From a virus: a stretch of 32,090 nt of DNA. Positions within the stretch are counted from its first letter, which is position 1. Every line of letters begins with the position of its first letter. Under the pieces are notes generated by a model. The model had not been told where the DNA came from and did no database searches. It saw only the letters and a program-made list of their open reading frames with translations. The translations under genes were made by a program, and so were the position numbers. Where the stretch lies: positions 1-32,090 of the IMG/VR virus record IMGVR_UViG_3300047557_002085. One strand, written 5' to 3'. Shown here one piece after another: positions 2,167-16,980 of this stretch.

Positions 2167-4227
2167 TTAGACATTAGGACTCCAAGGCTTTACATCGTTG
2201 GCAAAGAATTCGCTCTGATGGCCGTAAAGATACTTCTGACCTTCTTTCCGGTAGGAGATAAATCCGCCGGCAACAAGGGCATCTAGGACAGTTTTCAGCT
2301 CGTCATTGGCAATGGGGATGCGTTGTTCTCTTAAATGCTCGGCAATCTGATTCCTGCCCATCTCATAACCGACCCGATTTAGTAAGTCAGAAACCGCCTC
2401 CATCTTCTGCTCTTTAGTGGAAATCTTGACCGTTCCACCGGAGATTGAGACCGAGATGTGACCGTCACCGACAGAGCGGATGTTGGCAACGCCGACGGTC
2501 TTGGCATCAGGGCAGATGGCACGGACAAAGCCAGGGCGATCCTTCGTGCAAGTTATGTCCAAGGCACCGTCAATGCCACGGCCGAAAGGCAATGAGACCG
2601 AGACCGCAAAGGCAGCGCCGTCAATGTCGGCTCGCTTAGCCTGCGCTCCAATGGCGTAGTTGCCACGGTTGTCTTTCGATTTAGTCACATGGTCAATGGT
2701 CAGGATGCCAGCGCCACCGACTCGAAGCGGTCTTAAAATCATTTGAGAAAAGGTAGTGGCATCTTTGTTCTTCTCTAGGTCTAGGTTCATCAGGTTCATT
2801 GCGGCATTTACGCCGTCAACGACGATGAGGCTTGGCAGGTAGGCCATAATTTCGGTTCTCATTAGTTCTGCCACCCCTTGCTCGATTGCTTGGTCAGGGT
2901 TTGCATAACGGAAGAATTTGAACTTCTCGGTCGGCACCTGCATTGTTTTGAGGCGATTTAGGATGCCTCTTGCCGAGTCTTCAAAGTCAAGATAAAAGAC
3001 AATCTCGTTCTTCTCTAGCTCTTGACGAATTGCCTCAAGCGCAAGCCAAGTCTTTCCTGACTCAGACTCACCAAAAATGGCATTTATCTTGCCCGAATAA
3101 AGCAGACAGTTGCCATCTTCTCTTCGAAGCATCGTTGGCGGATTCTCGTCGGCAAGATTGATTTCTGAGAGTTGCTTTGGTATCCAAGAGGACTCAAAGA
3201 CTTCGCCTTCTTCATTATGTAGTTGAACCATCGATGGCGAATGGATTTCAAGCGTTCCGAGTTCTTTGCGGGCTTCGCCGTAGCCAAGGCTTCGCAAGGC
3301 TTTGGCAGCAGCCGAGAAGTCTCCGCCGTGTTCAACAAGGGCATAGACGGCAAATTTTGAATAGGCTCTTTCGGGTTCGAAAATTGTTGATGAGGTAAAG
3401 ACGAAGAACTTGTCAATGCCGGCGTGATTTGTTGTGGCGCTGATGCCTTCGTTCTTGCCTGGTCGCCTCCAAGCCGTCACCCCTGCCCGATTGGTGTGAA
3501 CTTTTGTCCAACCTAGAGGCTCAAGTATTTGATCCCAAGTGACTTTCGCGTTGTAATCATCTCCTGGCGTTAGACCTTCACCTTTGGGCTTTAGTTCTTC
3601 TTGAATATTCTCTTGTTTAGGAATTGCATCAAATGTGGCAAACAAAGAGTGCAGTTGAGTGCGCTCAGGCATTGTCAAGGTCGGAATGGACTTTGGCCCG
3701 CCATTTAGCATCTTCCAGGCTCCGCCTGATGGATGGCAGGTGCCATTTGTCGGAGCGACAATGACAAAGCCACCCTCGCCTCTCGTTTCGGCTAGGACAT
3801 CAATGCCACCGTTTTCTCCTGGCCTTCTTGCGAGCTTGGTGTTTCCTGGCACTTCACCATCGATGCGATAGAGCCAATGCAACCCGCCCGAAGGTGTCAT
3901 CTCTACATAACCATTGTTGATTCGATCCCAAACTTCACCAAGACCGGCGTTGGCAGCCATTTCTTTAAGTTCAATGTGAAGTTTGTCGGCGACAGCGCGG
4001 CCCTCCAACTCCAACATCTCTAAATTGCCTGAAACTTTGCCACAGATAACTCCAACGCCTTGCGAGTCGGCAAACCAGGTCATCAATTCTTCGGTGTTTG
4101 GTCTTCTCTCTTGATATTGCTTCCAAGAAGGAATGCCAGGGCGCTTTGAGCCGTCGGTGGCAACCGGAACAACTGAGATGCGTTCGTTGGCAAGTTCAAG
4201 TGCTGTTAAAAGAATGTCAGTTTTCAT
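2167..4227 (-). CDS. Primase-polymerase/helicase fusion
   Basis: Replication protein of 686 residues. Residues 1-170 form a bifunctional primase/polymerase domain: the acidic metal site is LELE at 72-75 in place of the usual DxD, followed by SGGLHWLYR at 113-121 and a GGFVIVAPT strand at 152-160. The C-terminal half is a RepA-like AAA ATPase: Walker A GESESGKT at 386-393, Walker B LIVVD at 467-471, then a TIDHVTKS sensor-like stretch. Such fusions prime and unwind DNA at phage origins. The start at 4227 is chosen because its ATG overlaps the upstream stop (ATGA); longer in-frame versions run through the upstream gene. A second, stand-alone primase-polymerase domain is encoded at 9681-10133. 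No DNA polymerase gene is seen, so elongation must use the host enzyme. Confidence 0.85.
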   Translation of the reverse strand: MKTDILLTALELANERISVVPVATDGSKRPGIPSWKQYQERRPNTEELMTWFADSQGVGVICGKVSGNLEMLELEGRAVADKLHIELKEMAANAGLGEVWDRINNGYVEMTPSGGLHWLYRIDGEVPGNTKLARRPGENGGIDVLAETRGEGGFVIVAPTNGTCHPSGGAWKMLNGGPKSIPTLTMPERTQLHSLFATFDAIPKQENIQEELKPKGEGLTPGDDYNAKVTWDQILEPLGWTKVHTNRAGVTAWRRPGKNEGISATTNHAGIDKFFVFTSSTIFEPERAYSKFAVYALVEHGGDFSAAAKALRSLGYGEARKELGTLEIHSPSMVQLHNEEGEVFESSWIPKQLSEINLADENPPTMLRREDGNCLLYSGKINAIFGESESGKTWLALEAIRQELEKNEIVFYLDFEDSARGILNRLKTMQVPTEKFKFFRYANPDQAIEQGVAELMRTEIMAYLPSLIVVDGVNAAMNLMNLDLEKNKDATTFSQMILRPLRVGGAGILTIDHVTKSKDNRGNYAIGAQAKRADIDGAAFAVSVSLPFGRGIDGALDITCTKDRPGFVRAICPDAKTVGVANIRSVGDGHISVSISGGTVKISTKEQKMEAVSDLLNRVGYEMGRNQIAEHLREQRIPIANDELKTVLDALVAGGFISYRKEGQKYLYGHQSEFFANDVKPWSPNV

Positions 4228-4406
4228 ATTGACCACCATCCCCGAATCGTTCCTCCTAGTGGGCAGATGTTCCAATCTGCCTTCCCATCTGCAATCCATT
4301 GCCGATGAAGCCTTGCTTGCTCTTGCCAATCAGTCTCGTGGGTGTCGCACCCACAATCAGGGCAAATGTCGGCTCCGACTTCTTCGTAAATGTGACGGCA
4401 TTTCAT
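4224..4406 (-). CDS. Small zinc-ribbon protein
   Basis: A 60-residue protein with two metal-binding pairs, KCRH near the N-terminus and CPDCGCDT in the middle, followed by an aromatic, amphipathic helix (TDWQEQARLHRQWI). It is coupled on both sides by ATGA overlaps, to the methyltransferase upstream and the primase-helicase downstream, so it is translated as part of that operon. Small zinc ribbons of this type are frequent in phage replication operons; no specific function can be assigned. Confidence 0.7.
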   Translation of the reverse strand: MKCRHIYEEVGADICPDCGCDTHETDWQEQARLHRQWIADGKADWNICPLGGTIRGWWSI

Positions 4407-9562: not shown

Positions 9563-9684
9563 AGAAGATTCGGTCAGTCAGAGTCAGCGACCAACTATGG
9601 GCGCGGGCGAAGGCGAAGGCGCGGGCAGAAGGCAAGACAGTCTCTGAAGTCATCGTTGATTTCTTAAAGGAGTTCGTCAAATGA
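9559..9684 (+). CDS. Ribbon-helix-helix (Arc/CopG-like) regulator
   Basis: A 41-residue protein. It shows the short N-terminal strand (KKIRSVRVSDQ), helix A (LWARAKAKARAEG), the KTVSEVI turn into helix B, and a FLKEFV end, exactly the RHH size and pattern of minimal DNA-binding dimers. Such proteins bind short direct or inverted operator repeats; the dyads at 9162-9223, in its own promoter, are the obvious candidates for autoregulation. It is coupled by ATGA overlaps to both neighbours. It is the only dedicated repressor-like gene in the window. Confidence 0.8.
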   Translation: MKKIRSVRVSDQLWARAKAKARAEGKTVSEVIVDFLKEFVK

Positions 9685-10133
9685 CGACCGCCGAGATTGC
9701 CAAAGGCTACGCCGAGCGCGGTTGGTTTGTTCTGCCCTGCTACCCGCAACAGAAAAAGCCATTCTTTCCAATAGCAGTTCACGGATATAAATCGGCATCT
9801 AATAAGCCAAAGACTGTGGCGAAGTGGTTTGAACGCTCGCCATTGCTCAACATTGGCATCGCCTGTGCGCCTTCAGGCATAGTGGTTCTTGATGTGGATT
9901 TCCGCAACGGTGGAAACATCGAAGGCTTAAATCTTGACACCTTCACAGTTGCCACCGGCGATGGAATCCATCTCTACTATCGAGCAAGCAAGGGCGCGAA
10001 CTTTCCTGGAAAATTGCGCGATGGTGTTGACATCAAATTCAATGGCTATGTTGTCACCGCAGGATCGATGCACGAGAACGGCAAGTTCTATGAAATCATC
10101 AAAGATGTTGAACTTGCGGAGTTGTCATTGTGA
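9681..10133 (+). CDS. Stand-alone primase-polymerase domain
   Basis: A 150-residue bifunctional primase/polymerase (prim-pol) domain without a helicase. Motifs: DVD metal site at 71-73 (GIVVLDVDF), GDGIHLYYR with H97 at 93-101, and D117 in GVDIKFNGYVVTAGS. Unlike the fused copy at 2167-4227, this one keeps the canonical DxD. It could synthesise primers or repair gaps, or interfere with replication of rival phages, since it lies in the rightward operon with the RHH regulator instead of the replication cluster. The start is coupled to the RHH stop. Confidence 0.85.
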   Translation: MTTAEIAKGYAERGWFVLPCYPQQKKPFFPIAVHGYKSASNKPKTVAKWFERSPLLNIGIACAPSGIVVLDVDFRNGGNIEGLNLDTFTVATGDGIHLYYRASKGANFPGKLRDGVDIKFNGYVVTAGSMHENGKFYEIIKDVELAELSL

Positions 10134-10408: not shown

Positions 10409-10680
10409 CCTTGCCGTTGCGCGATTTCGGCAAGTTCGCAAGCGATGGCGAGATATGCAGCACCATCTATGAAATTGTCCTCTTTGAACGATTCCATCGA
10501 GCGAGAAATCTTGACCAAAACCTGACAGACGGCAACCTGCTCAGGCGTTATCTGAGTTTCTAGGTAAGCCGACCATAATTGCGCAATTCGCAGGTGATTT
10601 AGGTAGGGAGCGCCGTAAGAATCTTGGCGATCCGTAGTTGTCAATTCTTCTGCCTGCTTTAGAACTTCTTTGCGCTTCAT
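10384..10680 (-). CDS. DUF6378-like protein
   Basis: A 98-residue helical protein with the pattern of a phage family seen beside nucleotide-metabolism genes: TTTDRQDSYGAPYLNHLRIAQ near the start, LWSAYL, then VCQVLVKISRS and DNFIDGAAYLAIACELAEI. The spaced Asp/Glu residues recall all-alpha NTP pyrophosphatase folds, but the catalytic set is not clear, so no reaction is claimed. The start at 10680 has the ribosome site AAGGGGGATTT. It is a single-gene unit ending in the shared terminator, divergent from the glycosyltransferase at 10739. Confidence 0.6.
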   Translation of the reverse strand: MKRKEVLKQAEELTTTDRQDSYGAPYLNHLRIAQLWSAYLETQITPEQVAVCQVLVKISRSMESFKEDNFIDGAAYLAIACELAEIAQRQGKTPASDK

Positions 10681-10738
10681 AAATCCCCCTTGGACAGTAG
10701 GCGCGAAAATTAGCACAACTCTGCTCTATTGTTGGGCA

Positions 10739-11428
10739 ATGGCCAAGATTGCGATGCTTTGGTTCCACAACCCGATGACCGGCGTTCAACGCCTGTCAAT
10801 TAGGTCATTCCTGCATCACGGTCACGAGGTGACGGTCTTCGCTTATGGCGCGATTGATGCGCCCGATGGGGTTAAATTCGCCGATGCCGGCGAGATAATT
10901 TCAGAGGACAAAATCTTCAAGAGCCACGACTCGTTTGCGGCCTTCTCGGATGTCTTTCGGTATCGCCTGCTTTCTCAGGCAGATTTTTTGTGGGCAGATG
11001 CAGACACGATTTGCCTGCGCCCCGATTGGAATTTTGACGACTATGTTTTCAGCTTTCAAGAGCCTTTCAAGGTCACAAATAATCTCTTGGGATACCCGCA
11101 AGGCTCACAATTAGCCAAGCGCCTGGTTGATGAATGCGTTTATCAGGAAGGCAAAGCCTATGACGAATTAGGGCCAATCTTGCTCACTCGTCTAGTTTCA
11201 GAACTAGGTCTTGGCGGTTATGTCTTGCCAAGTCAAACTTTCAATCCGCTTCATTGGACAGAGTTTCAAGCGCCTTTTAACCCAAGTCTTTGCGAAAATG
11301 TCTTGGCAAGATGTCAGGATTCCCACGCCGTTTCGCTCTCAAATTATCTGCTCAAATATCACGGCATCGACCGCGACAATTTCGTGCCAGGTTCGGCGGT
11401 AGCTCAATGGGATCAGACTTTTAGATAA
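10739..11428 (+). CDS. Glycosyltransferase with DXD motif (GT32-like)
   Basis: A 229-residue GT-A type glycosyltransferase. It opens with a sugar-nucleotide fold strand (KIAMLWFHNPMTGVQRLS); FSDVFRYRLLSQADFLWADADT contains the family's DxD at 87-89, which coordinates the metal and nucleotide sugar. The set FsDvfRyrlL..gG.w.DaDt is characteristic of the Gly_transf_sug (GT32) group. The start at 10739 follows a short non-coding gap with no clear ribosome site, so a leaderless message is possible. It converges on, and overlaps by 8 bases, the GT25-like gene. Likely substrates are virion proteins or the host surface. Confidence 0.75.
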   Translation: MAKIAMLWFHNPMTGVQRLSIRSFLHHGHEVTVFAYGAIDAPDGVKFADAGEIISEDKIFKSHDSFAAFSDVFRYRLLSQADFLWADADTICLRPDWNFDDYVFSFQEPFKVTNNLLGYPQGSQLAKRLVDECVYQEGKAYDELGPILLTRLVSELGLGGYVLPSQTFNPLHWTEFQAPFNPSLCENVLARCQDSHAVSLSNYLLKYHGIDRDNFVPGSAVAQWDQTFR

Positions 11429-12014
11429 TGCTTGCTCGATAATCAACTTCGTGCTTGCGAATGTCAGAGAAATCCGGCGTTTGAATGACGAAGGATGGGT
11501 TTGCCATATAAGTCACAACCTCGCGATGTAGCAGGCCATAAGCAGCATCAATCGGATGAGCGGTGTTTAGTGAGCATTCAATAAGCCGGTCAAAGATTTC
11601 TCGTTTGGCTCCGTAGGCGTGAGTGAGAATGTTGCCTTGCGTTTTCTTCAAGCCTTCAATTCCAACATCGATGATGGAATAAGGCCAAGAGCCGAGATAA
11701 AGCATCTGCCAATCATCAGGCACGACCTTTGAGATGTGGTCAAATTTAGCACTAAATTCAGCATCAAATCCAGCATCATCTTCAAAGATAAAGAGGCGCT
11801 CAACGCCATCGGCCAGGGCATCGGCGATGACTTGGCGATGCGACGCTGCGCAGGCGCGTTGCCCTGTAATGCCACAAGCCTCGGCATCGACGGCGCTATA
11901 ACGCACAAATTCGATTCCGAGGCTTGTTGCTTGCGAGACAAACCGTGAAAGGCGGTCAGTTCGTCTGTCTAAATTTATCAGCGCAACGCGGTCAAAGAAC
12001 TCGTTGAGCTTCAT
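11421..12014 (-). CDS. GT25-family glycosyltransferase
   Basis: A 197-residue protein with the hallmarks of LPS-biosynthesis type (GT25) transferases: ALINLDRRTDRL at 11-22, the GQRACAASHR segment around 51-60 and the EDD metal site at 78-80 (LFIFEDD), then LYLGSW. GT25 enzymes attach galactose or similar sugars. In a phage of a Gram-positive host this more likely modifies virion proteins or cell-wall polymer. It has its own AAGGGGGAA ribosome site after an 18-base gap from the holin gene. Confidence 0.8.
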   Translation of the reverse strand: MKLNEFFDRVALINLDRRTDRLSRFVSQATSLGIEFVRYSAVDAEACGITGQRACAASHRQVIADALADGVERLFIFEDDAGFDAEFSAKFDHISKVVPDDWQMLYLGSWPYSIIDVGIEGLKKTQGNILTHAYGAKREIFDRLIECSLNTAHPIDAAYGLLHREVVTYMANPSFVIQTPDFSDIRKHEVDYRASII

Positions 12015-13199: not shown

Positions 13200-13287
13200 T
13201 TCTCTCCTTTAGTAAGACCCCGATGTTTTCAAATAAATCTATGTGGTCATCAATGGTGCGGATGACATCTTCGATTTCATAAATCAT
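13126..13287 (-). CDS. Small ORF coupled to the recombinase
   Basis: A 53-codon ORF starting by ATGA overlap at the recombinase stop. The first 30 residues look like real protein (acidic amphipathic helix IEDVIRTIDDHIDLFENIGVLLKER); the rest overlaps the next gene by 74 bases in another frame, which is unusually long. It may be a small recombinase cofactor of directionality-factor size, or only a ribosome relay. A start at the internal ATG ending at 13280 is also possible. Confidence 0.35.
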   Translation of the reverse strand: MIYEIEDVIRTIDDHIDLFENIGVLLKERNGLVRSDHSYLNLGSYYSNLRRLP

Positions 13288-14072
13288 AAAAGGTTAACAA
13301 GACTTCGAGTTCGACCCGATGCAAGCTGAGTGTAAACCTGCGTTGTGGCAACCGACGAGTGGCGCATTAAGTCGCGCACAGCCAAAAGGTCTCCGCCGGA
13401 CTTCTCAAGCATTGTGGTTGCAAAGTAATGACGGCAAGCGTGAAAGGTCTTGGTTTCAATGCCAAGGCGTTTCATTTCCTCAGAAGCCATCTTGGAAAGT
13501 TTGTTGCTTGTGACATTCCAAAGCCGACCGCTCGTGTTATAGGCAAGAATTAAATCTGCCACCTTCTGCGCCACCGGAACTGTTAAATCGGTGCCACCTT
13601 TGCCGGCAATTCTTAGAATGTAGCCATCGCTTCGTTCTTCAAGGTCGATGCCTCGAAGGTTGGCAACCTCCATCGCCCTGAGACCGGCAGAACAAGCAAT
13701 GATGAACCAATCTCGCATCGGCTGATTGGCTTCGCTCATCACAAGCCTTGCTTCTCCTGGGCTTAGTGGGTGCGGTAGCCCGCGCCCTTTGCGCACCGGC
13801 GGGAGGTCTAGGTAGGCATTGTTCTCAATCATCTTCATCTTGTTCAGGCTTTTGAAGATGGATCGAAACCTTGCGGCGTAGGTGCCTCGCGTTGAAATGG
13901 CAGCAGGAACCGAGACGGCTCGTTGAATATCCTCGACGGTTGCGAGTTGTGGGTGAACACCCATTCGAAGAATGAGGTTCCAATCGTTGCGAAATAAAGC
14001 GTTTGAAAAGCCCTGCATCTCATAGCGAGCAGCGAGCTTTTCCTTGATGACTTCCATAGGTGTTAGTTCCAT
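13284..14072 (-). CDS. Tyrosine recombinase, core-only type
   Basis: A 262-residue recombinase. Residues 1-95 form the helical core-binding domain and 100-262 the catalytic domain with the complete set R132 (SAGLRAMEV), K158 (GKGG), H211-x2-R214 (HACRHYF), H238 (LMRHSS) and the nucleophile Y247 (TQVYTQ). There is no N-terminal arm-binding domain as in lambda-type integrases, so it resembles XerC, Rci-like invertases or integron integrases that act on simple core sites. The gene starts 25 bases from core-like site C and lies next to tail-fibre cassettes whose borders carry copies of that site. Likely function: rearranging those cassettes; phage integration is the alternative. Confidence 0.85.
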   Translation of the reverse strand: MELTPMEVIKEKLAARYEMQGFSNALFRNDWNLILRMGVHPQLATVEDIQRAVSVPAAISTRGTYAARFRSIFKSLNKMKMIENNAYLDLPPVRKGRGLPHPLSPGEARLVMSEANQPMRDWFIIACSAGLRAMEVANLRGIDLEERSDGYILRIAGKGGTDLTVPVAQKVADLILAYNTSGRLWNVTSNKLSKMASEEMKRLGIETKTFHACRHYFATTMLEKSGGDLLAVRDLMRHSSVATTQVYTQLASGRTRSLVNLL

Positions 14073-14097
14073 AGGGCAAGCCTAGCCTGACTTGTCA

Positions 14098-14121
14098 AGC
14101 ACAATCGCACACGATTGTTCC
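14098..14121 (+). other. Recombination core-like site C
   Basis: Arms AGCACAATC and GATTGTTCC, inverted with 7 of 9 matches, around the 6-base centre GCACAC. It is the plus-strand copy of a site also found at 14939-14962 and 15702-15725 in the opposite orientation. It lies between the recombinase start and the 5' end of cassette 3, whose reading frame runs through it. Arm and centre lengths match tyrosine recombinase core sites. Confidence 0.65.
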
Positions 14122-14690
14122 AGGCAGGCAGTCTCGTAGCGGATAGTGCGCAGGCCACAGGCTTGAAATGGCAGGCTGCCTCTAGTGGTGGAATGACTTT
14201 ATTATCAACCACTTCGATGAGTGGTGCTGCGACTACGGTGAGCGGCATTAGTGGAAGTTACAAAAAATTAGTTATTTATGTGGATAATTGGTATGCAAAC
14301 GCTAACGCCGAACCTTCAATTTATTTGAACGGATTTAATTCCACAAGCGCCTATCGAGGTGTTCAATTTGGAATCAAAACGGCCACCTTGATTTCGCTTA
14401 CTGCTTTATCTGCCACAAGCGGATTTAATGTTGCAACCGGATTTAGTAACATTGAAAATAGTCCGGCAGATAATTTTTTAATAGTAGAAATTGATGATTA
14501 CGCAGATACAAGCCACAAAAAACCTATTAGATGGCAAATTGTCGCTAATGCTGGTGATGGCTCTATGTGTAATGCTATGGGATTTGGCACGAGCGTTGAT
14601 GTTGGAGCAAGCGCGATAACCAGTTTTTCAATCAGTACGCCTTCAGGAACCTTCAGTGCTGGCGAAATCAGAATCTACGGAGTATCTTAA
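14115..14690 (+). CDS. Headless tail-fibre gene, cassette 3 (inverted)
   Basis: About 191 residues of tail-fibre C-terminus with no virion-attachment domain. It begins with the junction sequence LVADSAQATGLKWQAASSGG, equivalent to residues around 180-195 of the full fibre at 15970-16980. The receptor-binding part then differs completely from the other two fibres (LLSTTSMSGAATTVSGISGSY followed by an all-beta domain). The frame is open back to 14091, through site C, without a good ribosome site, so it is probably silent as it stands and expressed only after recombination. It is on the plus strand, opposite to all other tail genes. The reading frame is intact, which argues against decay. Confidence 0.7.
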   Translation: MFQAGSLVADSAQATGLKWQAASSGGMTLLSTTSMSGAATTVSGISGSYKKLVIYVDNWYANANAEPSIYLNGFNSTSAYRGVQFGIKTATLISLTALSATSGFNVATGFSNIENSPADNFLIVEIDDYADTSHKKPIRWQIVANAGDGSMCNAMGFGTSVDVGASAITSFSISTPSGTFSAGEIRIYGVS

Positions 14691-14691
14691 A

Positions 14692-14913
14692 ATGACTAAA
14701 AAACCGATCATAAGAGAACATAATATCGAAACAAACGAGATTATCGATAGGGAAATGACCGAAAGTGAATTTTTAATTTATTCACAAAAACAAAATGAAT
14801 TTGAACAAAAGAAAATTGAACAAGCCGAAGCCGAAGCCAAGCGCGAAGCGGCATTGGCGAAGTTGGCTGCTTTGGGTCTTGAGCCTGATGACCTCAAAGC
14901 ATTAGGACTCTAA
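14692..14913 (+). CDS. Fibre accessory protein, cassette 3
   Basis: A 73-residue protein, start one base after the fibre stop with GGAG 8 bases upstream. The N-terminal half is its own (KPIIREHNIETNEIIDREMTESEF), while the C-terminal 28 residues (from QAEAEAKREAALAKLAALG onward) are nearly identical to the accessory protein of cassette 2, encoded tail-to-tail on the other strand. The pattern of fibre plus small helical partner recalls fibre assembly chaperones such as the Mu S/U pair. The shared tail may bind a common virion part. Confidence 0.65.
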   Translation: MTKKPIIREHNIETNEIIDREMTESEFLIYSQKQNEFEQKKIEQAEAEAKREAALAKLAALGLEPDDLKALGL

Positions 14914-14919
14914 GATTAA

Positions 14920-14940
14920 CCCTGCCCATCAAGGGCAGGG
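14920..14940. terminator. Hairpin between converging cassettes
   Basis: Perfect 8-base stem CCCTGCCC/GGGCAGGG with a 5-base loop, between the converging accessory genes and touching site B. There is no T-run on the plus strand and only a weak one on the minus strand. It may terminate both directions, or bring a recombinase site into a cruciform. Confidence 0.55.
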
Positions 14941-14962
14941 AACAATCTTGGGGAATTGTGCT
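14939..14962 (-). other. Recombination core-like site B
   Basis: On the minus strand: arms AGCACAATT and GATTGTTCC around the centre CCCCAA. The left arm begins inside the TAG stop of accessory gene 2, so the site marks the exact cassette end. It is in direct orientation to site A and inverted to site C. Confidence 0.65.
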
Positions 14963-15230
14963 AGAGACCAAGAGCCTTTAGGTCGTCAGGCTCAAGACCT
15001 AACGCAGCCAATTTTGCTAAAGCCGCTTCACGCTTGGCTTCGGCTTGCTCTTTTTTCTGCTGTACCCAATTTTGGTAATCATCGACCGCATCTAAAATCG
15101 TTTGGTCGCTTGGTTGTTCAATATCTTGGCTAATCCACTCAAGGCCAGTTAAATCTTCGCCGCGAATAACAAATTCAGCGTTTGGAACTAACCATTTGAT
15201 AGTCTCACTTAATAAAATTCCTTGATTCAT
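14961..15230 (-). CDS. Fibre accessory protein, cassette 2
   Basis: An 89-residue protein. The N-terminal 50 residues (TIKWLVPNAEFVIRGEDLTGLEWI, then a DAVDDYQNW helix) resemble in layout the accessory protein of the full fibre gene at 15724; the C-terminal helix and the LAALGLEPDDLKALGL end match that of cassette 3. It starts at the last base of the fibre-2 stop (TAATG) and ends at site B. A probable assembly partner of fibre 2, expressed together with it. Confidence 0.65.
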   Translation of the reverse strand: MNQGILLSETIKWLVPNAEFVIRGEDLTGLEWISQDIEQPSDQTILDAVDDYQNWVQQKKEQAEAKREAALAKLAALGLEPDDLKALGL

Positions 15231-15664
15231 TATGCGCCTACTTCCAAAAGAGTTAAGGTAGCAATATGGGTCGAATATGGCATCGCTACTGTGGTGCTTG
15301 CGGTTGCTGCGGCTTGTTGCACTTTATAAGTTATTGCGGAAGTGGTGTTGGGCGAATCTAAATATGAATAACTAACAACAACCTGTACGCTTGAATTTTC
15401 TTCACCTGGGACATTGACTTGTTCTTGAATGGATGTTGAATCGCGCATTAATCGGAATTTTGCGTAAAGACTAGAACCAGCACCTGATAAATAACACCCA
15501 AGTGAATAAATTGCTAAAATTTTACTTCCTGTTGTCGCTGGAGTTATTGTTGCCGATAAACCTGTATCGGTGTAAGTAGTGCTAGAAACTGAAACTTGGG
15601 TCGAAGTAGTCGCTCCGACAACCTGCAAGATTTTACCCCCACTTGGTGGAGCCTGCCACTTCAA
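15230..15664 (-). CDS. Headless tail-fibre gene, cassette 2
   Basis: A 144-residue fibre C-terminus from the first usable start (TTG); the homologous junction VADSSTSTGLKWQ lies just upstream in the same open frame, which continues back through site A. From GGKILQVVGATTSTQ to the end (TLTLLEVGA) it is clearly homologous to the C-terminal half of the full fibre, but with a diverged centre. No N-terminal virion-binding region and no ribosome site are present, so it looks like a silent donor cassette. The frame is intact. Confidence 0.7.
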   Translation of the reverse strand: MKWQAPPSGGKILQVVGATTSTQVSVSSTTYTDTGLSATITPATTGSKILAIYSLGCYLSGAGSSLYAKFRLMRDSTSIQEQVNVPGEENSSVQVVVSYSYLDSPNTTSAITYKVQQAAATASTTVAMPYSTHIATLTLLEVGA

Positions 15665-15701
15665 ACCTGTGCTTGTAGAACTATCCGCTACGGAAATGAC
15701 T

Positions 15702-15725
15702 GGAACAATCTCCGAGGATTGTGCT
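15702..15725 (-). other. Recombination core-like site A
   Basis: On the minus strand: arms AGCACAATC and GATTGTTCC around the centre CTCGGA. It begins within the TAG stop of the full fibre's accessory gene and ends at the start of cassette 2. With site B in direct orientation it flanks cassette 2 (about 763 bases), so recombination between them would release a circle. Confidence 0.65.
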
Positions 15726-15969
15726 AGGAAAGCAGGAGCTTGGCTTCTTCGGCGGTAATTCCTAGGCGATCAAGCAGGGCTTGCTTTGCTAAAATTTTAC
15801 TTGATTCTTCTTCGGCTTTCCAAGCATCAAATTGCTCAAAGCCAGCCTCGAATTCTTCTTTTGAGATTGGGTCACATTCGATAAATTGAATACCCTCGTA
15901 TTCTTCTCCGTATAAAACCCATCCACCTTGGGGTAATAGAAACGATAAAACTTGCGCTGACTTATTCAT
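15724..15969 (-). CDS. Fibre accessory protein, active pair
   Basis: An 81-residue protein directly after the full-length fibre gene (stop TAA followed at once by ATG). The N-terminus reads GGWVLYGEEYEGIQFIECDP, then an acidic helix (EFEAGFEQFDAWKAEEE) and an end KQALLDRLGITAEEAKLLLS that corresponds to the shared C-terminus of the other two accessory proteins. Probable fibre assembly or tip protein. Its stop codon forms the edge of site A. Confidence 0.65.
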   Translation of the reverse strand: MNKSAQVLSFLLPQGGWVLYGEEYEGIQFIECDPISKEEFEAGFEQFDAWKAEEESSKILAKQALLDRLGITAEEAKLLLS

Positions 15970-16980
15970 TTATACTCCAATTTCCATAAGAATAATTGAA
16001 CCTGTGTTTGAGTTATTTTGTACGAATACTGAACTTCCGCCACCTTCATTTCTAAATTCAAGTGTGTAAGTTGTTGAGGATGTCGTTGAAGGAGAATCAA
16101 GATAAATAGCCGAATATCCCGCAATCAACTCAAAACTTTGTCCATCTGGAAATAGTGCGTTTGTATGCGTTAAAACAGTAGTGGCATCGCGCTGTAATCT
16201 GAATGACGGCCTGTTGCCTGTCGTATTGCTTCTTCCTACCGTTGTATTACATAGAATTAAAACCTTCGAAGTGGTCGCTGAAGGCGTGATGCTGGTGAAT
16301 AAACCAGTCGAAACAAATGTTGTGCTTGTGCTGTTTGCTTGTGTTGTGGTTGTGGCACTTACTACCTGCAACACTTTCCCACCACCGCCGGCAGCAGCCC
16401 ACTTGAGTCCGGTCGTCTCTGAAGAGTCCGCTACGAGTGTGTGACCGTTTGTGCCTACGGCTAGGCGGGCAAAGGTATCTGCCCCAGTTCCAACAATTAG
16501 GTCACCTTTGGCATCAATCGCGGTCGCCATTGAGTTGGTGATTGTGACTGTGCCTGAAGTGCCTCCACCGCTAATGCCGGTGCCTGCGGTGACACCTTCG
16601 ATGTCGCCTGAAGCCGGTGTTGCGAACTGATAAAAGACGGCTGCGCTGGCGCTGTTAAAATACAAAACCCCGCCTTGATATTGAGCCAAGACTAGAGAGC
16701 CGGAAGTGTTGACCGTCGCGGTGCCTGCCGTGACTGTGCAGGTTCCTGATCCGCGATTTTGAATGGTGACAATATCACCGGCCGCAAATAAACCTGTGTT
16801 GACGGTTATTGTCGTTGCGCCTGAAGCGTTCATTGCAACAACGGTTCCGGCATCTGCGGCGACAAGCACATAACTTGTCGTTTTTGCGGTCGTATCCCCA
16901 CCGAGCATCGCTGTTTGTTGCAACGATGTCATTTGCGCGGCAGTTAACACCTGACCTGTTGTGAAGGTCTGTTTTGCCAT
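15970..16980 (-). CDS. Tail fibre, full-length
   Basis: A 336-residue fibre. Residues 1-175 form the constant part: MAKQTFTTGQVLTAAQMTSL, then a beta-rich repeat region and IEGVTAGTGISGGGTSG, typical of fibre shafts that attach to the tail tip. The junction HTLVADSSETTGLKW at about 179-195 leads into the receptor-binding half, which has counterparts in the two headless cassettes. Ser/Thr/Gly content is very high, as expected for secreted-like beta fibres. It has a GGAGA ribosome site. No core-like recombination site is visible at its junction; only the short shared string CTCGTAGCGGA aligns with cassette 3. Confidence 0.75.
   Translation of the reverse strand: MAKQTFTTGQVLTAAQMTSLQQTAMLGGDTTAKTTSYVLVAADAGTVVAMNASGATTITVNTGLFAAGDIVTIQNRGSGTCTVTAGTATVNTSGSLVLAQYQGGVLYFNSASAAVFYQFATPASGDIEGVTAGTGISGGGTSGTVTITNSMATAIDAKGDLIVGTGADTFARLAVGTNGHTLVADSSETTGLKWAAAGGGGKVLQVVSATTTTQANSTSTTFVSTGLFTSITPSATTSKVLILCNTTVGRSNTTGNRPSFRLQRDATTVLTHTNALFPDGQSFELIAGYSAIYLDSPSTTSSTTYTLEFRNEGGGSSVFVQNNSNTGSIILMEIGV

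Follow-up and report, generated by a model that had tools for sequence, protein, structure and literature searches.

What use could a phage make of tail-fibre genes that lack their N-terminal half? The question is raised by a locus in IMG/VR virus record IMGVR_UViG_3300047557_002085, a virus contig whose 32,090 bases are referred to here as the window. The locus consists of a full tail-fibre gene with an accessory gene, two silent cassettes each holding a fibre tip and an accessory gene, one of them inverted, and a gene for a tyrosine recombinase. We conclude, with a probability of roughly 85%, that it is a phage-encoded shufflon of tail-fibre tips, in which an arm-less tyrosine recombinase joins short sites, termed J, at a 6-bp GTAGCG spacer. 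One such site, J1, is located within the expressed fibre gene and another, J', at the start of each silent tip; where J1 and a J' are in opposite orientation, the whole intervening segment would invert. The constant N-terminal half would thereby be fused in frame to another tip, accompanied by the accessory gene that matches it, and the previously expressed pair would fall silent. The same enzyme probably also acts on a second class of sites, the spacer-tolerant palindromic S sites, where whole cassettes would be gained or lost.

The full fibre gene (15970-16980, minus strand) is composed of a constant N-terminal part (16435..16980) and the expressed tip 1 of family A (15970..16434), for which a TNF-like lectin fold is predicted, and is followed on the same strand by accessory gene 1 (15724..15969). 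Silent tip 2, also of family A (15230..15691), and accessory gene 2 (14961..15230) are likewise on the minus strand. The inverted cassette is on the plus strand and holds silent tip 3 of family B (14136..14690) and accessory gene 3 (14692..14913), which belongs to the family paired with B tips. Both silent frames are open from a GTA codon, and the recombinase gene (13284..14072, minus strand) encodes 262 aa. These coordinates, the open frames and the complete catalytic residues agree with a preliminary description of the locus, in which a full fibre/accessory pair and two N-terminally truncated pairs, one inverted, were recognized with a recombinase at the edge. A junction VADS..GLKW common to the three fibres had also been noticed, and VADS..TGLKW does open all three tips, each in an open frame.

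The preliminary description saw no core-like site inside the full fibre gene and left the final step to homologous recombination or to an unrecognized site. However, the VADS codons of the full fibre gene, and those of every silent tip, coincide with J sites (GTAGCG-GATAGT), and the crossover probably takes place at the shared CTCGTAGCGGA itself. J1 (ACACTC-GTAGCG-GACTCT, encoding ..TL-VADS) is at 16423..16440 on the minus strand and aligns with the S-site arms without a shift (left, CACACTC versus CACAATC; right, GATAGT, the form in most relatives, versus GATTGT). The J' of cassette 2 (ATTTCC-GTAGCG-GATAGT) is at 15680..15697 on the minus strand and that of cassette 3 (AGTCTC-GTAGCG-GATAGT) at 14130..14147 on the plus strand. 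We also tried GGAACAATCCAAGGAGAATTAGCC, a core-like motif of distant relatives, as a third site between the fibre and accessory genes, and rejected it as a GTIQGELA coding motif within the fibre gene.

The S sites are 24-bp palindromes with a variable 6-bp spacer, found where cassettes end and a short way upstream of the recombinase gene. There are exactly three in the whole window, all at the cassette locus: S alpha (AGCACAATC-CTCGGA-GATTGTTCC; 15702..15725, minus strand), which overlaps the stop codon of accessory gene 1, S beta (AGCACAATT-CCCCAA-GATTGTTCC; 14939..14962, minus strand), which overlaps that of accessory gene 2, and S gamma (AGCACAATC-GCACAC-GATTGTTCC; 14098..14121, plus strand), 49 bp upstream of the recombinase start. 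A search for the pattern that tolerated up to 2 mismatches gave 3 occurrences in the window, where chance predicts 0.02, and 100 shuffles never yielded as many as 3. A terminator-like hairpin without assigned strand (14920..14940) abuts S beta. TTGACA adjoins S gamma within the interval of less than 50 bp upstream of the recombinase start (14073-14121), and a recombinase bound at S gamma could repress its own gene.

Relatives were collected by recombinase and pattern scans of IMG/VR, which yielded 110 deduplicated viral loci with a recombinase identity of at least 66%; counts of the array grammar refer to 99 non-redundant loci. The arrays of the 110 loci carry 1-4 cassettes. Most loci with enough sequence have a common layout in which the constant part, J1, a tip and its accessory gene precede 0 to 3 silent cassettes, after which come an S site and the recombinase gene. 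An S site was located at most 120 bp upstream of 81 of the 99 recombinase genes but of none of 552 random positions, and the S spacers were class-specific. The alpha site was oriented like its J' in all of 59 cases, the beta site was placed between tail-to-tail cassettes (J+ and J-) in 42 of 42 (16 in plus and 26 in minus orientation), and the gamma site adjoined an inverted J' (J-) in 35 of 35. As judged from these arrangements, inversions between J1 and an inverted J' would generate all permutations seen. Two loci, L136 and L217, are four-cassette arrays, and L217 has two successive alpha-type sites (TCAGAG), as if arrays can grow. A distant branch (L053-L112), in which the recombinase is 56-60% identical, has complete fibre genes in tandem; between such phages, similarity is lost close to a J variant, GTAGCA, and returns close to GCGGAACAATC, some 50 bp upstream of the recombinase gene, both positions being approximate.

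Pairwise comparison of the loci shows inverted segments with breakpoints at J. L122 and L139 are 97% identical up to J1 and 91.6% identical from J' onwards, with the 557-bp middle inverted. The flanks of L013 and L014 are 93% and 97.5% identical on either side of an inverted beta segment, and the same inversion was found in L014/L030, L003/L013 and L003/L011. For L168 and L177, the identity is 99.6% through GTAGCGGA of J1 (J+8), after which 1.5 kb including the alpha site is inverted and the identity returns to 97.5% near the J' at gamma. The most exact breakpoint was provided by a 732-bp cassette that is 100% identical in L140 and L225 and has opposite orientations in the two: fused to the constant part and hence expressed in L140, silent beside gamma in L225. 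The identical block opens exactly with the first base of GTAGCG and extends through the final base of the beta site. Since the two genomes differ elsewhere, the same cassette has been transferred or inverted, rather than one phage having been caught in two states.

Differences in cassette number, on the other hand, have their junctions at S. L138 carries one cassette, in a layout also found in L190 and L035, and L030 and L014 carry two. On the recombinase side, L138 and L030 are 99.1% identical over 3.9 kb starting within the S site, and the S site of L138 is hybrid-like, with the outer left arm of beta and the spacer and right arm of alpha. In comparisons of two- and three-cassette arrays (L121/L122, L141/L139 and L180/L184), the left homology stops at alpha+22, where the S site ends, while L114 and L125 differ by one cassette and the recombinase-proximal spacer derives from the other partner. 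The junctions in L138 and L114/L125 thus imply events that joined S sites with unlike spacers, and the recombinase probably performs this joining. We had considered the spacer as an address that restricts the choice of partner, as in heterospecific lox sites, and rejected this since the S events joined unlike spacers and the spacer was inherited from either side.

The preliminary description proposed that the phage stores alternative receptor-binding cassettes and rearranges them with its own recombinase, and named a search of relatives for other cassette orders between the same borders as a check. The relatives do differ in configuration, by inverted segments, by an identical cassette that is expressed in one genome and silent in another, and by cassette numbers that change at S junctions. 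This supports the proposal, with the recombinase as the presumed agent.

It could be argued that integron-like excision and integration between S sites is the primary process and that the J junctions are a mere by-product of fibre-gene fusion. In its favour, the palindromes at S are the stronger ones, arrays that differ in cassette number have their junctions at S, and the block shared by L140 and L225 has its right end at an S site. Still, we consider this explanation unlikely because inverted segments break at J and not at S, and because the silent tips could not join the N-terminal half without J. Moreover, inversion between S sites predicts a two-cassette order 'J+ S J+ S recombinase', which was seen in none of the loci compared.

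Somewhat less probable still is general homologous recombination at the VADS..GLKW junction, with the recombinase as a bystander. The junction is common to the cassettes over about 40-55 bp at 75-95% identity, but J1 and J' of the same genome agree base for base over no more than 0-4 nt on the left and mostly 8-15 nt on the right (range 6-23), which is short for RecA. With so few exact bases in common, accidental joining by an assembler at the usual k-mer sizes would not be expected either. All J sites share one codon phase (Val-Ala), and the Val codon is GTA in 93 of 93 silent and 42 of 47 expressed copies, the Ala codon GCG in 93 of 93 silent and 46 of 47 expressed copies, while the codon after GTAGCG is almost always GAT. 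Synonymous positions are fixed only in GTAGCG-GAT, whereas the GLKW codons downstream are near-free (entropies of 1.7-2.0 bits for Gly, 2.25 for Leu and 0.9-1.0 for Lys), indicating a constraint at the DNA level on spacer and right arm. Further points against homologous recombination are the left breakpoint of the L140/L225 cassette, which coincides with the edge of the spacer, without one additional nucleotide, and the recombinase gene with S sites that adjoins the array in many relatives.

The silent frames are intact at a length of at least 120 aa in 98 of 100 cases, the other two having 117 aa, and an accessory gene follows the silent tip in 98 of 100. The 151 tips form 124 clusters at 90% identity and fall into three main families, each of which was found both expressed and silent. 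In a comparison for which tip types were set by simple sequence patterns (42 of 149 remaining untyped), N-terminal matches of accessory proteins were confined to tip families (196 A-A, 473 B-B and 95 C-C), with zero A-B, A-C and B-C matches against approximately 177, 83 and 122 expected. Since accessory families follow tip families, the accessory protein is a dedicated partner of its tip. The 3' end of the accessory gene (about 97 nt), in contrast, remains with the S-site side. In the window, a 94-nt inverted repeat (81%) in the 3' ends of accessory genes 3 and 2 flanks S beta (14819-14912 and 14962-15055). The C-terminus of the accessory protein thus seems tied to the side of the site and not to the tip, which suggests conversion or an origin by inverted duplication.

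An AlphaFold2 (AF2) model of the expressed tip 1 has a TNF-like lectin fold with a predicted local distance difference test score (pLDDT) of 85, and Foldseek matched it to the sugar-binding lectins PLTL (9ib7) and BC2L-C. The modelled fold is consistent with receptor binding, and the tips would set host binding. Tip 3, of family B, gave a beta-rich AF2 model (pLDDT 76) without a confident fold match.

The recombinase matches Pfam Phage_integrase (PF00589, E=4.4e-15), and the R-K-HxxR-H-Y catalytic residues, as read from the sequence, are complete. Its 262 aa comprise the core and catalytic parts only, without an arm-type N-terminal domain. In a PDB sequence search the closest solved structures were Brujita Int gp33, XerA and XerD (matches 5vfz at 6e-16, 4a8e, 5hxy and 1a0p). 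XerC was the top NCBIfam model at a score far under the cut-off, and the integron integrase model TIGR02249 gave 50.9 bits against a cut-off of 265. The catalytic match extends to residue 251-260, which, as far as sequence matches tell, leaves little room for an Rci-like extra domain at the C-terminus. Among isolated phages only integrases of about 30% identity were found as relatives, and a peptide-pattern scan of 84,980 prokaryote genomes, which reaches close relatives only, yielded no close relative; within that reach, the enzyme is unlike a lysogeny integrase. The sole match in the host scan of prokaryote genomes was 27% identical, in an archaeal metagenome-assembled genome, and gives no host assignment. 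That the recombinase is nonetheless a prophage integrase with S gamma as attP, and the cassettes unrelated mosaic debris, is very improbable: a member of the integrase family that has a palindrome immediately upstream of its gene would fit, but S sites recur at cassette ends, the grammar is fixed across 99 loci, debris would not keep 98 of 100 silent frames open, and no prophage relatives appeared in that scan.

Several observations weigh against a shufflon acting at J and S. No pair among the compared contigs is known to represent the same phage in two states, and most compared loci differ in tip content too, so that inversion and tip replacement are mixed. The left arms of J' match those of S and J1 poorly, S sites with unlike spacers should recombine poorly by the classical overlap-identity rule, and the peptide patterns of the prokaryote scan detect close relatives only. 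Silent tips 2 and 3 of the window have no close relatives, those of tip 2 being only 34-45% identical and tip 3 having a single 51% match over 52 aa in IMG/VR, so that the comparison shows no direct exchange of these particular cassettes. A shufflon remains our preferred explanation; under it, the recombinase would act at both J and S, and tips would be switched within a population.

The two site classes differ in symmetry. The spacer and right arm of J' are conserved and its left arm is variable, tracking the adjoining S site (alpha or gamma) and not the tip, whereas the S sites are symmetric. According to the published Rci model, asymmetric sites confine the recombinase to inversion and symmetric sites permit excision as well, so with an asymmetric J' and symmetric S sites one enzyme could do both jobs. 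We therefore tentatively propose, leaning slightly against rather than for it, two layers served by a single recombinase: inversion at asymmetric J sites would determine which tip is expressed, excision and capture at symmetric, spacer-tolerant S sites which tips are owned, and phages would trade cassettes site-specifically. If true, this would be a natural hybrid of shufflon and integron, and the symmetry of the sites would by itself determine the outcome.

Other genes of the window are structural, and a portal protein, head maturation protease, large terminase and HK97-type capsid identify it as a tailed phage. Two neighbouring genes are glycosyltransferase-like (10670-11428, plus strand, and 11421-12014, minus strand), with a weak match to Gb3_synth and a clear one to Glyco_transf_25. 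A Prim-Pol domain occurs twice (2167-4329, minus strand, and 9681-10133, plus strand), one copy with an AAA domain and the other alone on the opposite strand.

The closest known system is the Rin shufflon of Bifidobacterium prophages, followed by R64 Rci and the invertible fibres of phiCh1/phiH. As described by Mavrich et al. 2018 (PMC6109161), Rin likewise has a phage-encoded arm-less tyrosine recombinase beside the locus, a receptor-binding protein whose constant N-terminal part can be joined to one of several variable C-terminal parts at a short asymmetric repeat, and inversions, seen here as alternative orientations in related genomes. The rix repeat TTCCCTAACCC is absent from the window, and the text consulted describes neither a second, palindromic site class nor an accessory gene moving with the tip, unlike the window family. 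There, Rin resides in prophages that also carry an integrase, while a close-relative scan did not find the window family in sequenced bacterial genomes.

R64 shares the tyrosine recombinase and the several silent C-terminal segments, and its sfx sites, like J', have a conserved core and right arm and a variable left arm (PMC11852207). It differs in serving a plasmid pilus adhesin, in its 7-bp core, in the extra C-terminal domain of Rci and in having no symmetric sites in the natural array (PMC11852207); the sfx core and right arm, GTGCCAATCCGG, was not found in the window. Int1 of phiCh1/phiH is also a virus-encoded XerD-type tyrosine recombinase that switches tail-fibre genes, but in an archaeal virus whose recombinase gene lies centrally between two fibre genes and works as a simple two-state switch (PMC6210493). 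Inversion swaps the fibre tip behind a constant part, as here, in the Mu G segment (Gin), P1 (Cin) and p15B (Min), according to the background given in PMC6109161. Gin, Cin and Min are serine recombinases, in contrast to the tyrosine recombinase of the window. In Mu, an accessory gene is swapped together with the fibre tip.

The preliminary description called the locus part shufflon and part integron. Of the second half, the gain and loss of cassettes at recombinase-type sites beside an integrase gene holds, by comparison of the arrays and as an analogy only. The integrase falls far below the IntI cut-off, the sites are simple single 24-bp palindromes, apparently unlike attC, and switching is by inversion. 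The geometry of the S sites also fits a Xer/dif-type module, with arms of about 11 bp and a 6-bp variable spacer, but the S arms are self-complementary and do not resemble dif.

Judged against open-access papers, the apparently new features are symmetric S sites next to asymmetric J sites, an accessory gene shuffled along with the tip in a tyrosine-recombinase system, cassettes gained and lost at S, and how widely the family is spread. Dozens of related viruses with tips flipped, swapped, gained or lost at precise sites suggest a widespread and apparently undescribed form of attachment switching. Tyrosine-recombinase fibre shufflons, found in that literature only for a few Bifidobacterium prophages and haloviruses, would thereby extend to a large group of uncultured phages. 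The model explains how a tip can be swapped in frame together with its matching accessory protein, and a natural array in which asymmetric as well as symmetric sites adjoin a single small enzyme allows a direct test of the Rci hypothesis, according to which the symmetry of a site selects inversion or excision. GTAGCG-GATAGT together with the S palindromes provides a marker for finding such arrays.

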